From positions 2,298,501 to 2,362,500 of the forward strand of contig NZ_CP117435.1 of NCBI RefSeq assembly GCF_030687495.1: a stretch of DNA of 64,000 nt, written 5' to 3'. The stretch's first letter is position 1. Every line of letters starts with the position of its first letter. Under the pieces are notes generated by a model. That model worked only from the letters and a program-made list of their open reading frames with translations, was not told the origin of the DNA and made no database searches. Positions 11,352 through 44,354 of the stretch are shown here, piece by piece. This stretch comes from Pseudomonas sp. FP453. Lineage in GTDB: Bacteria; Pseudomonadota; Gammaproteobacteria; Pseudomonadales; Pseudomonadaceae. Made by a program: the position numbers and the translations under genes.

Positions 11352-11648
11352 TTAACCGTGTTTCAGGCAGTTGATCGAGCGATCCACCGTGGTCCGGGCA
11401 ATCTCCAGTAGGTGCCACACCGCCAAAATCTTCGCTCGTTCGGGGCTCTCCAGCTGTTCACCACAATCCAGCGCAGTGGCCGACGCGCTATCGAGCAAAC
11501 TGGCGGTGTAGAGCAGGGCATCCTCGAAGCTCAAGTCTTCGTTGACCGAGTGGAAACCTTGGGTGGGCAGGTAATGATCGATGGCGCGGTTGAAGGCGGC
11601 GCGATCTTTGGCGGGGTCGAAGGGTGGATCGGGGACAACCTTGTTCAT
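11352..11648 (-). CDS. DUF3077/DUF6124-like small protein, copy 1
   Basis: Protein of 98 residues of a Pseudomonas-restricted type. The N-terminus (MNKVVPDPPFDPAKDRAA) is followed by a helical domain (FEDALLYTASLLDSASATAL, then a conserved leucine-rich C-terminal helix with ARTTVDRSINCL). It has no signal peptide or membrane segment. The domain pattern resembles DUF3077/DUF6124, whose function is unknown. A near-identical copy lies at 43715-44011. GGAG is eight bases before the ATG. Both copies share a long structured leader, and both lie between REP elements. The shared leader suggests post-transcriptional control of this gene. Confidence 0.85.
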   Translation of the reverse strand: MNKVVPDPPFDPAKDRAAFNRAIDHYLPTQGFHSVNEDLSFEDALLYTASLLDSASATALDCGEQLESPERAKILAVWHLLEIARTTVDRSINCLKHG

Positions 11649-11688
11649 GGTGTATCTCCAACTGGTAGGTAAGGAGCCGATCCCTTCG

Positions 11689-11845
11689 CGACTAAACGAG
11701 GGTGGCGGCTGTACGCAGGTTAGTCGACCGGCCAGTTGGCTCCGGCGCACCCGAAGGTGCCCTGCGCACAGCCACCATGAACACGGTGACAGCTTGCGCA
11801 CAACTGGATGTCGGGCGACTAAACCCGATCACTGATAAGCAGTGA
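11689..11845 (-). ncRNA. C4-antisense-like structured leader RNA, copy 1
   Basis: Read on the minus strand, the arm at 11776-11761 (GGTGGCTGTGCGCAGG) pairs over all 16 positions, with two G-U pairs, to 11719-11704 (CCTGCGTACAGCCGCC). The loop holds a hairpin with a cUUCGg tetraloop (11760-11747, GCACC-UUCG-GGUGC) and the sequence CGACTAAC. That octamer is complementary, with one bulged base, to GTTTAGTCG at 11824-11816 and again at 11697-11689, about 40 bases before the gene start. A further hairpin (TCACTG/CAGTGA) lies at 11845-11829. The UUCG orientation sets the strand. The architecture resembles phage P1/P4 C4 antisense RNA from memory; no database search was done. Confidence 0.6.
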
Positions 11846-11990
11846 CGGACCGCAGACTAGCCACCGATTCCAGCAGGCACAAGGCGGCAGGGATTGTCTA
11901 GGAAACGTCCTGCAATTTAAAGCGACACGGCTTGCTGGCCCTTTACAAACCATGACAAAACGCCAGCAACCCACCCAAGCCCCCTGATGC
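11846..11990 (-). promoter_or_regulatory. Conserved region upstream of the C4-like leader, copy 1
   Basis: About 140 bases beyond the structured leader are nearly identical to 44213-44338, including an AT-containing block (TTTAAATTGCAGGACG on the minus strand). Conservation across two copies in unrelated surroundings suggests this is the promoter part of the cassette. No convincing -35/-10 pair could be chosen by eye. Confidence 0.45.
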
Positions 11991-12003
11991 ATGGAGATCA
12001 AAA

Positions 12004-12500
12004 TGTGGGAGCTGGCTTGCCTGCGAAAGCGGTGGTTCGGCTGGCATTTTTGGCGACTGACACGCCGCCATCGCGGGCAAGCCGGCTCCCACAGGGGATG
12101 GCTGGTGTGCCTATTTCTTGAGCCAGGCGCAATTCAAATGTGGGAGCTGGCTTGCCTGCGAAAGCGGTGGTTCGGCTGGCATTTTTGGCGACTGACACGC
12201 CGCCATCGCGGGCAAGCCGGCTCCCACAGGGGATGGCTGGTGTGCCTATTTCTTGAGCCAGGCGCAATTCAAATGTGGGAGCTGGCTTGCCTGCGAAAGC
12301 GGTGGTTCGGCTAGCATTTTTGGTGACTGACACGCCGCCATCGCGGGCAAGCCCGCTCCCACAGGGGATTGCGGGTGTGCCTATTTTTTGAGCCAGGCAC
12401 ATATCCAAATGTGGGAGCTGGCTTGCCTGCGATAGCGGTAGTTCGGCTAGCATTTTTGGCTACTGGCACACCGCCTTCGCGAGCAAGCCCGCTCCCACAT
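12004..12500. repeat. Tandem array of four REP pairs, period about 135 bases
   Basis: REP pairs begin at 12004, 12139, 12274 and 12410, giving periods of 135, 135 and 136 bases. Each unit is TGTGGGAGCTGGCTTGCC..., a variable centre, its inverse, and a spacer ending in a conserved TTGAGCCAGGC. The first three units are almost identical, which points to recent tandem duplication. Open frames through it are repetitive and are not genes. With the C4-like leader this accounts for the gene-free stretch 11649-12632. Confidence 0.9.
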
Positions 12501-24244: not shown

Positions 24245-24555
24245 GTACATATCCGTTATTTAGGTAACGGCGGCTTAGGGTTCCGCTCTTACAGCGGGTC
24301 ACTTTTGGAGGGACCCAAAAGTAACCAAAAGGTCCTCGCCCCAACACTCGGCACCTCGCCTAGGCTCGGTGTGCCCGAACGCAGGCTTGAATCCGTGGGC
24401 CGCCGCCACGCGCCATCCATGGCGCGGGGCGGCTAACCCGGCGTCCTGCCGGGTTGCCCACGGATTCAAGCCTGCGTTCGGCCAGCGTGTTTGACGGGGC
24501 GACCCCAGATCAAAAGCAAAAGCGCGGCGGCCTTAGAGCCGACCGGTATTTGTCC
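24245..24555 (+). repeat. Large dispersed repeat, arm A (forward)
   Basis: About 310-base element beginning GTACATATCCGTTATTTAGG and containing several internal palindromes, including CGCGCCATCCATGGCGCG and a duplicated ATTCAAGCCTGCGTTCGG-type inverted segment. Homologous elements occur inverted at 25047-25354 and in the second composite at 36101-36858. Not coding; frames across it are palindromic artefacts. Confidence 0.8.
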
Positions 24556-25046: not shown

Positions 25047-25354
25047 CCGGTCGGCTACTAGGCCGCCGCGATTTGCTTTTGATTTTGATCTTAGGCGCCC
25101 CGTTAAACACGCTGGCCGGAATTCGGCATGGATTTGGGGGGTAAACCGGCAGGGATGCCGGTTTAGCCGCCCCGCGCCATGGATGGCGCGTGGCGGCGGC
25201 CCCCCAAATCCATGTCGGATTACGGGCACACCGAGCCTAGGCGAGGTGCCGAGTGTTGGGGCAAGAGCCCTTTGGTTACTTTGGGGCTTTTCCAAAGTGA
25301 CCCGCCGTAAGGGCGGAACCCTAAGCCGCCGTTACCGCAGCAACGGATATGTAC
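25047..25354 (-). repeat. Large dispersed repeat, arm B (inverted)
   Basis: Inverted and diverged homologue of arm A, ending AACGGATATGTAC at 25354. Together A and B bracket the tandem REP units, filling the 1.2-kb gene-free gap between the fecR-like gene and the receptor. The right end is only 22 bases from the fecR-like stop codon. Confidence 0.8.
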
Positions 25355-36062: not shown

Positions 36063-36896
36063 TGTGGGAGCTGGCTTGCCTGCGATGGCGGTCTTTTTGT
36101 GTACATATCCGTTATTTAGGTAACGGCCACCTATGGTTCCGCTCTTACAGCGGGTCACTTTTGGAGGGACCCAAAAGTAACCAAAAGGTCCTCGCCCCAA
36201 CACTCGGCACCTCGCCTAGGCTCGGTGTGCCCGAACGCAGGCTTGAATCCGTGGGCCGCCGCAATGGGCCATCCATGGCCCAGTGCGGCTAACCCGGCGT
36301 CCTGCCGGGTTGCCCACGGATTCAAGCCTGCGTTCGGCCAGCGTGTTTGACGGGGCGACCCCAAATCAAAAGCAAGAGCGCGGCGGCCTTAGAGCCGACC
36401 GGTATTTGTCCAGTCGCTCACCATTCAACTGTGTGAACTGGCACCTGTGGGAGCTGGCTTGCCTGCGATGCAGACACCTCGGTACATCAGGCAAACCCAG
36501 TTGATGCCATCGCAGGCAAGCCAGCTCCCACAGGGAAACGCGCACGCTTCATCGATCAGGTCGGCTACTAGGCCGCCTCGCTGTGTTTTTGATCTTAGGC
36601 GCCCCGTTAAACACGCTGGCCGGAATTCGACATGGATTTGGGGGGTAAACCGGCAGGGATGCCGGTTTAGCCGCCCCGCGCCATGGATGGCGCGTGGCGG
36701 CGGCCCCCCAAATCCATGTCGGATTACGGGCATGCCGAGCCTAGGCGAGGCACCGAGTGTTGGGGCAAGAGCCCTTTGGTTACTTTGGGGCTTTTCCAAA
36801 GTGAGCCGCCGTAAGGGCGGAACCATAGGTAGCCGTTACCCAAATAACGGATATGTACACAGAAAGACCGCCATCGCAGGCAAGCCAGCTCCCACA
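36063..36896. repeat. Composite element: REP halves enclosing inverted large repeats and an inner REP pair
   Basis: Nested palindrome filling the gene-free 36029-36912 gap. The outer REP halves are at 36063-36093 and 36868-36896. Inside are a forward arm C (36101-36411, starting GTACATATCCGTTATTTAGG) and an inverted arm D (36557-36858, ending AACGGATATGTAC). The terminal inverted repeats extend about 50 bases (GTCTTTTTGTGTACATATCC versus the inverse with one change). An inner REP pair lies at 36446-36532. It is a sister of the 24245-25354 element. The outer REP appears split by insertion of the C-D unit. Confidence 0.82.
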
Positions 36897-43714: not shown

Positions 43715-44011
43715 TTAAACGAGTTTCAGGCAGTTGATGGAGCGGTCCACCGTGGTGCGGGCAATCTCCAGCAGGTGCCACACCGCCAGAATCTTCGCCC
43801 GTTCGGGGCTCTCCAGTTGTTCACCACAATCCAGCGCCGTCGCCGAAGCACTGTCCAGCAAACTGGCGGTGTAGAGCAGGGCGTCTTCGAAACTCAGGTC
43901 TTCGTTGACCGAGTGGAAGCCTTGGGCTGGCAGGTAATGGTCGATGGCGCGGTTGAAGGCGGCGCGGTCTTTTGCCGGGTCGATAGGTGGGTCGGGTAGG
44001 GCTTTGTTCAT
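43715..44011 (-). CDS. DUF3077/DUF6124-like small protein, copy 2
   Basis: 98 residues and nearly identical to the protein at 11352-11648. The visible differences are a few residues at the N-terminus (MNKALPDPPIDP versus MNKVVPDPPFDP), Pro-Ala for Pro-Thr near residue 29, and the last two residues (LV versus HG). As with copy 1, it has no secretion signal and carries the C4-like leader. Identity across gene and leader, and location between REP pairs, indicate a duplicated or mobile cassette 32 kb apart. Function unknown. Confidence 0.85.
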   Translation of the reverse strand: MNKALPDPPIDPAKDRAAFNRAIDHYLPAQGFHSVNEDLSFEDALLYTASLLDSASATALDCGEQLESPERAKILAVWHLLEIARTTVDRSINCLKLV

Positions 44012-44050
44012 GGTGTAACTCCTTGTGTGATTGGGAGCCGACACCTGTCG

Positions 44051-44212
44051 CGACTAAACGAAGGGTGGCGGCTGTACGCAGGTTAGTCGACCGGCCACAA
44101 GGAAATCCGGCGCACCCGAAGGTGCCCTGCGCACAGCCACCATAAAACTTCATGTGACCATGCGCCTTGTGTCATTCCGGGCGACTAAACCCGATCACTG
44201 AATGAGCAGTGA
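44051..44212 (-). ncRNA. C4-antisense-like structured leader RNA, copy 2
   Basis: All elements of copy 1 recur: 16-base arms at 44141-44126 and 44082-44067, cUUCGg hairpin at 44125-44112, loop octamer CGACTAAC (44089-44082), matching targets GTTTAGTCG at 44190-44182 and 44059-44051, and hairpin TCACTG/CAGTGA at 44212-44195. The loop spacers between the hairpins differ in sequence and length while both stems are unchanged, which is what a functional RNA fold predicts. Conserved promoter-side sequence continues to about 44338. Confidence 0.6.
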
Positions 44213-44354
44213 CGGACCGCAGACTAGCCACCGATTCCAGCAGGCACAAGGCGGCGGGGATTGTCTCGGAAACGTCCTGCAATTTAAAGCGACACGACTT
44301 GCTGGCCCTTTACAAACCATGACAAAACGCCAGTAACCCCATGGGAGCACGGTC

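Follow-up and report, generated by a model that had tools for sequence, protein, structure and literature searches.

The 64,000-nt stretch of Pseudomonas sp. FP453 analysed here (the window) carries two cassettes on the minus strand, copy 1 at 11882-11352 and copy 2 at 44249-43715, in each of which a C4 antisense RNA stands at the head of a small DUF6124 gene. This C4 is a member of a known RNA family in a new setting: it is chromosomal, much multiplied, privately coded and placed before DUF6124/DUF3077 genes, which, judging from base complementarity, are probably kept off by this immunity-type RNA. Both copies show the same order of parts, namely a sigma-70-like promoter, the target boxes a1 and b1, the C4 with its antisense boxes b' and a', the target boxes a2 and b2, and the DUF6124 gene (Table 1). 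In both copies the loop b' of C4 is complementary to b2, the box that contains the Shine-Dalgarno sequence of the gene behind it, and the segment a' is complementary to a2, which lies upstream of b2 in a hairpin loop. Both target boxes are repeated 5' of C4 as a1 and b1.

Table 1. Cassette features of the two copies, with positions in the window
Feature	Position	Strand	Basis
Copy 1 promoter: TTGTGC 11882-11877, 17-nt spacer, TAGTCT 11859-11854	11854..11882	-	sequence
Copy 1 c4-a1b1 element (RF03163): hairpin and a1 hairpin	11808..11860	-	cmscan 38.8 bits, E 1.6e-8, gathering 46.7
Copy 1 a1 box GTTTAGTCG, in the loop of the second leader hairpin	11824-11816	-	sequence
Copy 1 b1 box CCAGTTG, complementary to loop b' of C4	11801..11807	-	sequence
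Copy 1 C4 antisense RNA, 85 nt	11698..11782	-	RF01695 74.2 bits; fold z -5.88
Copy 1 b' box GGAGCCAACTGG	11743-11732	-	loop within C4
Copy 1 a' box CGACTAA	11726-11720	-	within C4
Copy 1 a2 box GTTTAGTCG, target of a'	11689..11697	-	sequence
Copy 1 b2 box CCAGTTGGAG, includes the Shine-Dalgarno sequence, target of b'	11656..11665	-	sequence
Copy 1 DUF6124 gene, 98 aa	11352..11648	-	PF19619 38.6 bits, cut-off 27
Copy 2 promoter TTGTGC-N17-TAGTCT, identical to copy 1	44221..44249	-	sequence, alignment
Copy 2 c4-a1b1 element	44174..44227	-	RF03163 42.8 bits, E 9.7e-10, gathering 46.7
Copy 2 a1 box	44190-44182	-	sequence
Copy 2 b1 box CACAAGG	44165..44171	-	sequence
Copy 2 C4 antisense RNA	44061..44147	-	RF01695 86.4 bits; fold z -6.50
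Copy 2 b' box ATTTCCTTGTGG	44106-44095	-	loop within C4
Copy 2 a' box CGACTAA	44089-44083	-	within C4
Copy 2 a2 box GTTTAGTCG	44051..44059	-	sequence
Copy 2 b2 box CACAAGGAG, includes the Shine-Dalgarno sequence, target of b'	44019..44027	-	sequence; covariation
Copy 2 DUF6124 gene, 98 aa	43715..44011	-	PF19619 38.7 bits, run on 43718-44011

Alignment of the two copies leaves the -35 and -10 hexamers, a1, a', a2 and both C4 stems unchanged, and the leader changes cluster in b1, the spacer that follows it, the loop b' and the a2-b2/start region. The spacers next to the boxes also differ; the three boxes are nonetheless still complementary. An initial annotation of this DNA had described the second copy as having changed linkers and unchanged stems, and the alignment agrees, the stems being identical. 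The changed linkers are the point, as they hold the putative C4 boxes and their matching targets. That annotation named neither the promoter, the antisense boxes nor the repeated targets a1/b1, and did not recognise the private codes.

The C4-antisense-like identity proposed earlier was borne out by the Rfam C4 model (RF01695), to which both copies score above the cut-off of 45 bits (74.2 and 86.4). The outer stem of 16 bp, two of them G-U, and the inner cUUCGg hairpin were likewise seen at 11698-11782 (-). The octamer loop of the initial annotation did not hold as a fixed feature, the Rfam structure giving a 12-position loop that has 10 nt in copy 1 and 12 in copy 2; the sequence of this loop is the antisense box b'. 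The predicted folds reach -51.3 kcal/mol in copy 1 (z -5.88) and -51.0 kcal/mol in copy 2 (z -6.50), with 0 of 200 shuffles as good in either case. Among 55 C4 copies, 14 of the 21 predicted stem pairs show compensatory change, the covariation that the proposed fold predicts; the b' hairpin as such was not recovered in the consensus fold of these copies. The c4-a1b1 model (RF03163) is above its cut-off in six of 20 other loci, and the window copies reach 38.8 and 42.8 bits against 46.7. The isrK model (RF01394, cut-off 50) overlaps the a1/b1 leader, with 18.1 and 30.6 bits in the window (30.6 in copy 2), and exceeds its cut-off in three of the 20 loci scanned.

The pairing of boxes with targets was examined in three genomes: the home genome (G000), with 13 C4 matches, all 13 above the Rfam cut-off; G010, with 36 matches, 35 of them above it, of which 35 were used and one partial match was left out; and G019, with 42 matches, all used, one of them below the cut-off and 41 above. 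The main score compares loci in pairs and takes the strongest ungapped helix that the registered C4 boxes of the one can form with the registered target boxes of the other, the helix windows and the measure having been chosen after the sequences had been inspected. For a' and b' together against the downstream a2 and b2, the mean for own targets was -29.4, -28.6 and -28.3 kcal/mol in G000, G010 and G019, respectively, and that for the targets of other loci was -18.1, -18.4 and -18.0 kcal/mol; in each of the three genomes, 0 of 20,000 permutations reached the own mean. The own downstream target was the best one for 13/13 copies in G000, 24/35 in G010 (22 uniquely, 2 ties) and 31/42 in G019. Because 11 of 35 copies in G010 and 11 of 42 in G019 have a better downstream target at another locus, insulation is not absolute by the helix score. 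The own target ranks second to sixth in 18 of these 22 copies; those of G010 are L093, L095, L096, L099, L100, L105, L106, L116, L178, L180 and L181, among which L178 and L181 look broken. Against the upstream a1 and b1 the own means were -24.5, -25.4 and -25.9 kcal/mol and the others -19.1, -19.3 and -19.5 kcal/mol in the same genomes, a signal weaker than the downstream one, yet reached by 0/20,000 permutations in all three. Taken singly, b' against b2 gave -16.9 kcal/mol for own and -9.9 kcal/mol for other loci in G000, and a' against the downstream a2 beat the permuted pairings in each of the three genomes (0/20,000).

Matrices of long-window RNAduplex scores were dropped as too permissive, because G+C-rich stem pieces pair anywhere, and the ungapped helices of registered boxes were used instead. 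The long-window score for a and b together has the same sign (0/20,000 permutations), with the own target best in 4/13, 2/35 and 9/42 copies; for a' downstream in G010 it gives no signal (4339/20,000 permutations). The count of longest exact complements points in the same direction, with many ties. When the loci were restricted to named species and a single close protein subfamily, b' against b2 scored -16.1 for own and -9.3 for other pairs (0/20,000), and the own b2 was best in 22 of 39 rows, a few of these rows being the same loop with a shifted cut. The upstream pairing of a' shows no signal in the named-species set (1665/20,000 permutations), where a' varies little by eye.

The cassettes are most likely self-silencing units, built like those of P1 C4 and P4 CI. 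A single sigma-70-like promoter would transcribe the leader (a1, b1), C4 (b', a'), a2, b2 and the DUF6124 or related gene; the C4 part would be cut out or released from this transcript and would then base-pair with the mRNA of its own cassette, b' binding b2 and a' binding a2. The box b2 overlaps the Shine-Dalgarno sequence, and C4 pairing there would block ribosome binding. Pairing with a1/b1 could act as a second check, earlier in the transcript, and the gene would be expressed whenever C4 runs short, as might happen soon after the arrival of a cassette in a cell. We infer repression of the gene by C4 because the boxes are complementary, and complementarity alone fits both a free antisense RNA and pairing within the same transcript. 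A leader switch acting in cis only, in which C4 stays in the mRNA, the boxes pair intramolecularly and no free RNA is made, predicts identical covariation, and its parts do share one strand and span about 250 nt. Pairing is also possible between the 3' arm of C4 and a downstream segment, where own pairs modestly exceed those with other loci (own -16.0, -13.6 and -12.8, other -14.2, -12.7 and -11.7 in the three genomes; 118, 283 and 12 of 20,000 permutations). The predicted leader fold of copy 1, which pairs the C4 5' flank with the start-codon region, tells both ways: it keeps the C4 structure and leaves b' unpaired with b2, and pairing of the C4 5' end with the start-codon region was rejected as a candidate in the three genomes, where it shows no covariation and no own-over-other signal (7218, 11449 and 2084 of 20,000). 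Targets occur twice, before and after C4, a duplication that would be superfluous for pairing in cis; moreover, P4 CI is described as arising by processing and the Salmonella isrK RNA as acting in trans. Taken together, we regard a purely cis-acting switch as clearly improbable and keep to the self-silencing unit with a released C4.

The codes formed by b' and a' are mostly private. A distinct (b', a') code was found in 89 of the 90 copies of the three genomes, with shifted cuts allowed for, and the sole shared code belongs to L102 and L110, a pair about 700 nt apart in G010. Codes differ also between paralogues whose proteins are up to 99% identical. In 29 paralogue pairs with proteins at least 85% identical (1, 9 and 19 in G000, G010 and G019), the mean b' identity is 0.67, little above the 0.61 found in all 1500 within-genome pairs. 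One of the 29 pairs has a common b', but a different a'; a' is identical in 12 of the 29, so that b' carries most of the code difference. Distinct loops also occupy corresponding sites of different genomes. In the copy-1 neighbourhood of other Pseudomonas, 10 distinct b' loops occur among 13 loci, of which one was matched on both flanks and 12 on one; three of the ten loops are only one to three bases apart. The copy-2 neighbourhood has 9 distinct b' loops among 17 loci with a called C4 (an eighteenth, L292, was left out, its C4 overlapping the match start), and the named-species loci have 35 in 71, these counts merging copies that differ only by a shifted cut. A code may have evolved at its own site or may have been taken over from a paralogue. 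In the named set, a test for selection of mutually avoiding codes within genomes was not significant, the mean cross-pairing being weaker than in shuffles, yet not by much: 396 of 5000 shuffles were as weak when P. orientalis was left out, and 891 of 5000 when its two identical records were included. Nearly every copy is thus privately coded, and most look able to silence themselves and to spare close sister copies. Since an RNA mostly matches its own transcript better than the transcripts of its paralogues, tens of largely independent cassettes could share one genome.

Promoter-like sequences are retained in most cassettes. A TTGnnn and a -10-like hexamer, mostly 17 nt apart, were found in 77 of 91 loci, against an average of 2.75 of 91 in mononucleotide shuffles (119 loci were given, 97 anchored and 91 long enough, and the regular expression was written after examples had been seen). 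In many loci of G010 and G019, and also in G000, a 24-nt box CCTACAACTACGCCAGAATCCGCC ends 3 nt before the -35 hexamer (L103, L140 and L011 are examples). With up to three mismatches allowed, it has 40 copies in G000, G010 and G019 together, 39 of them within about 260 nt 5' of a C4, and the reversed control pattern has no match in these three genomes; the window copies do not match the box pattern. The box may be the site of a shared regulator, or may reflect recent common descent. Other loci have, by eye, TTCCGAC...GTCGGAA-like dyads around the -35 in place of this box. A terminator-like stretch that could act after b1, as in P4, precedes C4 in 6/13, 5/35, 4/42 and 15/29 loci of four sets, compared with 9/130, 10/350, 14/420 and 7/290 control stretches of the same sets; both window copies lack such a stretch between the upstream target and C4.

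The initial annotation had spoken of several copies, which understates the 13 C4 of the home genome. C4 was found at E <= 0.001 in 138 of 149 Pseudomonas genomes (137 above the cut-off), a survey in which at most 27 candidates per genome were scored. In a sample of the class, 24 of 369 genomes, the home genome included, have C4, mostly in one to four copies and, outside the home genome, in ten copies at most. DUF6124 was detected in 47/59 Pseudomonas genomes, and the highest number of matches in a single genome is 43; P. fluorescens SBW25 has at least one such gene, PFLU_3586. C4 and DUF6124 go together: a DUF6124 HMM match starts within 400 nt 3' of C4 for 10/13 C4 in G000 and 34/42 in G019. 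DUF6124 matches without a C4 of their own number 3/13 and 9/43 in these genomes, and the position of several of those in G019 marks them as the second gene after a C4-headed first one. In named species, C4 is kept where the gene is kept, as had been expected earlier: it lies upstream in 72 of 78 loci, in 71 of them 47-57 nt 5' of the protein match, and among the other six, three are partial matches, one runs into a contig end, one falls in a masked stretch and in one C4 extends over the beginning of the protein match. Of the DUF3077/DUF6124-like gene annotated on the same strand, the DUF6124 part stands for both copies (38.6 and 38.7 bits, cut-off 27), and the DUF3077 part is reduced to a sub-threshold match (12.3 bits in copy 2, cut-off 21).

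The first ORF after C4 was clustered in 143 loci (144 examined, three more contig-edge loci being left out; clusters were named via Pfam on examples). The DUF6124/DUF3077 cluster accounts for 81 loci, a 52-aa family for 16, a further small-protein cluster for 12 and a Bro-N cluster for 9, followed by two clusters of 2 and 21 singletons, some of which may be wrong, the ORF picker being simple. The 52-58-aa family, beginning MHALNPSKIRAAAHRAMALAALHANSS, stands behind C4 in these 16 of 143 loci (L001, L014-L017, L020, L151 and others), and the one member run against Pfam gave no match. In G019, a selenocysteine tRNA gene (L122:410-501) and a C4 cassette are separated by about 1 kb.

The proteins of the two window copies agree at 92 of 98 residues, and their coding DNA at 260 of 294 bases. 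The AlphaFold model consists of an N-terminal helix and a long helical hairpin (mean pLDDT 80.7, pTM 0.55), with blocks above pLDDT 90 from residue 41 to 90. A structure search with this model gave 0 matches at E <= 0.001 in PDB or among viral models, the sequence profile gave a best E of 0.22 against PDB, and the protein has no match in NCBIfam. In phage P1, Icd is itself under C4 control. A relation of type I toxin-antitoxin kind, in which DUF6124 is harmful, C4 serves as antitoxin and addiction keeps the cassettes, would be compatible with self-silencing and would suit the antisense control of a small protein, the many copies and the private codes; Icd, from the C4 region of P1, is also described as blocking cell division, and the Salmonella isrK locus as controlling a toxic protein. 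Neither Pfam nor NCBIfam, though, gives a toxin-family match, and the helical hairpin has no significant structural match. We consider a toxic role rather unlikely, and the self-silencing reading does not depend on it.

The initial annotation had placed the C4 outside any prophage with no phage gene near, and this stands. Of nine flanking ORFs, eight encode transport, regulator or enzyme proteins (ABC transporter parts, EamA, LysR, aldehyde dehydrogenase, MFS, MerR and a permease) and one is without a Pfam match. PHROGs matches of the flanking ORFs are of unknown function, with two weak exceptions, a QacE-like match of the EamA protein (E 2.8e-4) and a transposase match of the MerR protein (E 2.1e-4). 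A phage immunity region before an antirepressor is not the setting here, the next gene being DUF6124; such a position is a matter of setting and no structural criterion of the C4 family. The DUF6124 protein of copy 1 found no match in phages or plasmids, and that of copy 2 none confirmed in viral contigs. The copy-1 leader DNA gave partial matches in eight phage and ten plasmid records, and three of the phage records were examined. One of the three, the prophage record DVM-2008 of Pseudomonas fluorescens Q8r1-96 (L301, EU982300.1), has a C4-DUF6124 cassette at its edge, adjoining the repressor prtR; the cassette may belong to chromosomal flank.

A phage setting of C4 is visible elsewhere, and is perhaps the ancestral one. 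Three C4-headed genes of other genera belong to AntA, Rha and Bro-N (Pfam); the C4-headed gene in phage PAJU2 is Bro-N, which also occurs in several Pseudomonas loci; and in the 10-kb record of vB_Pae_U10 (L303) the gene after C4 starts, by eye, like the 52-aa family. These antirepressor-type genes and phages, together with the few cassettes that look broken (L018, L178, L181), would be expected if the cassettes were leftovers of decaying prophages or satellites without present function. Decay does not account for the retained promoter-like sequences, for compensatory stems and boxes that change along with their targets, or for the regular 47-57 nt between C4 and the protein match, and the examined neighbours of both window copies are ordinary host genes. 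It is highly improbable that the cassettes are mere remnants, and functioning self-silencing units fit these features better.

Repeats and other motifs were also seen in the window. A tandem array at 12001-12499, of 3.7 copies of a 135-bp unit with the REP-like GTGGGAGCTGGCTTGC, lies beside cassette 1, and REP-like GTGGGAGCTGGCTTGC sequences also flank cassette 2. As general borders of the cassettes they were rejected, being present on both sides in only 5/13 loci of G000, 10/63 of the named set, and 0/34 and 0/42 of two further sets. Four TwoAYGGAY motifs (RF01731) lie at 24368-24488 (-), 25108-25234 (+), 36224-36344 (-) and 36609-36740 (+), with 58.6-65.6 bits against a cut-off of 43, forming two oppositely oriented pairs about 12 kb apart.

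C4 (RF01695) and c4-a1b1 are recorded for proteobacteria and phages by Weinberg 2010 (PMC2864571), and tables of transcriptome or annotation data list C4 for Burkholderia cenocepacia and Xylella; because of these records, C4 beyond P1/P4 is not new. The term DUF6124 was not found in the open-licence literature searched, and for DUF3077 one paper was found, which reports a mutation in one such gene of P. putida. Among the open-licence matches listed, the available text links C4 RNA neither to chromosomal DUF6124/DUF3077 genes nor to private codes.

In the genus Pseudomonas, C4 is accordingly a widespread multicopy structured RNA of free-living bacteria, attached to uncharacterised protein families, and this link gives a practical starting point for work on DUF6124/DUF3077. 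Together the copies amount to a natural collection of privately coded RNA regulators, in which the evolution of antisense specificity after duplication, and the number of independent RNA locks per cell, could be studied. More tentatively, and at somewhat less than an even chance, the cassettes may be a host-resident, 'heteroimmune' family derived from a phage immunity RNA, in which codes are renewed, the protein stays nearly constant and a new copy switches on only if its code is absent from the cell. If so, the chromosome would hold tens of mutually independent RNA locks, with perhaps one shared transcription factor reading the common box upstream of many promoters.

Among the closest known systems is the C4 of P1. 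The boxes of P1 are ordered a1-b1-C4(b',a')-a2-b2, as in the window cassettes. The same covariance model (RF01695) covers the C4 of P1/P7, whose a1/b1 targets are described by RF03163, and in both settings there are boxes at the ribosome binding site of the gene that follows. PMC12197685 presents C4 as a phage immunity device, which in P1 pairs with the ant mRNA in the region of its ribosome binding site. Unlike P1/P7 C4, the window cassettes lie outside an immunity region, are followed by DUF6124 and not by icd/ant, and belong to a family with up to tens of copies per Pseudomonas genome that carry different codes. The CI RNA of P4 is described (PMC4825925) as an antisense RNA processed from a leader, with the targets seqA and seqC, which are situated on either side of CI as the targets of C4 are here; some Pseudomonas loci, the window copies not among them, resemble P4 also in a terminator-like stretch between a1/b1 and C4. 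P4 differs in that pairing there causes premature transcription termination of replication genes. A third relative is the isrK - orf45/STnc1160 - anrP region of Salmonella Gifsy-1, whose isrK model (RF01394) overlaps the Pseudomonas a1/b1 leader. In Gifsy-1, however, the short RNA is described as making a prophage transcript translationally active, whereas here the C4 heads a DUF6124 cassette amid host genes.
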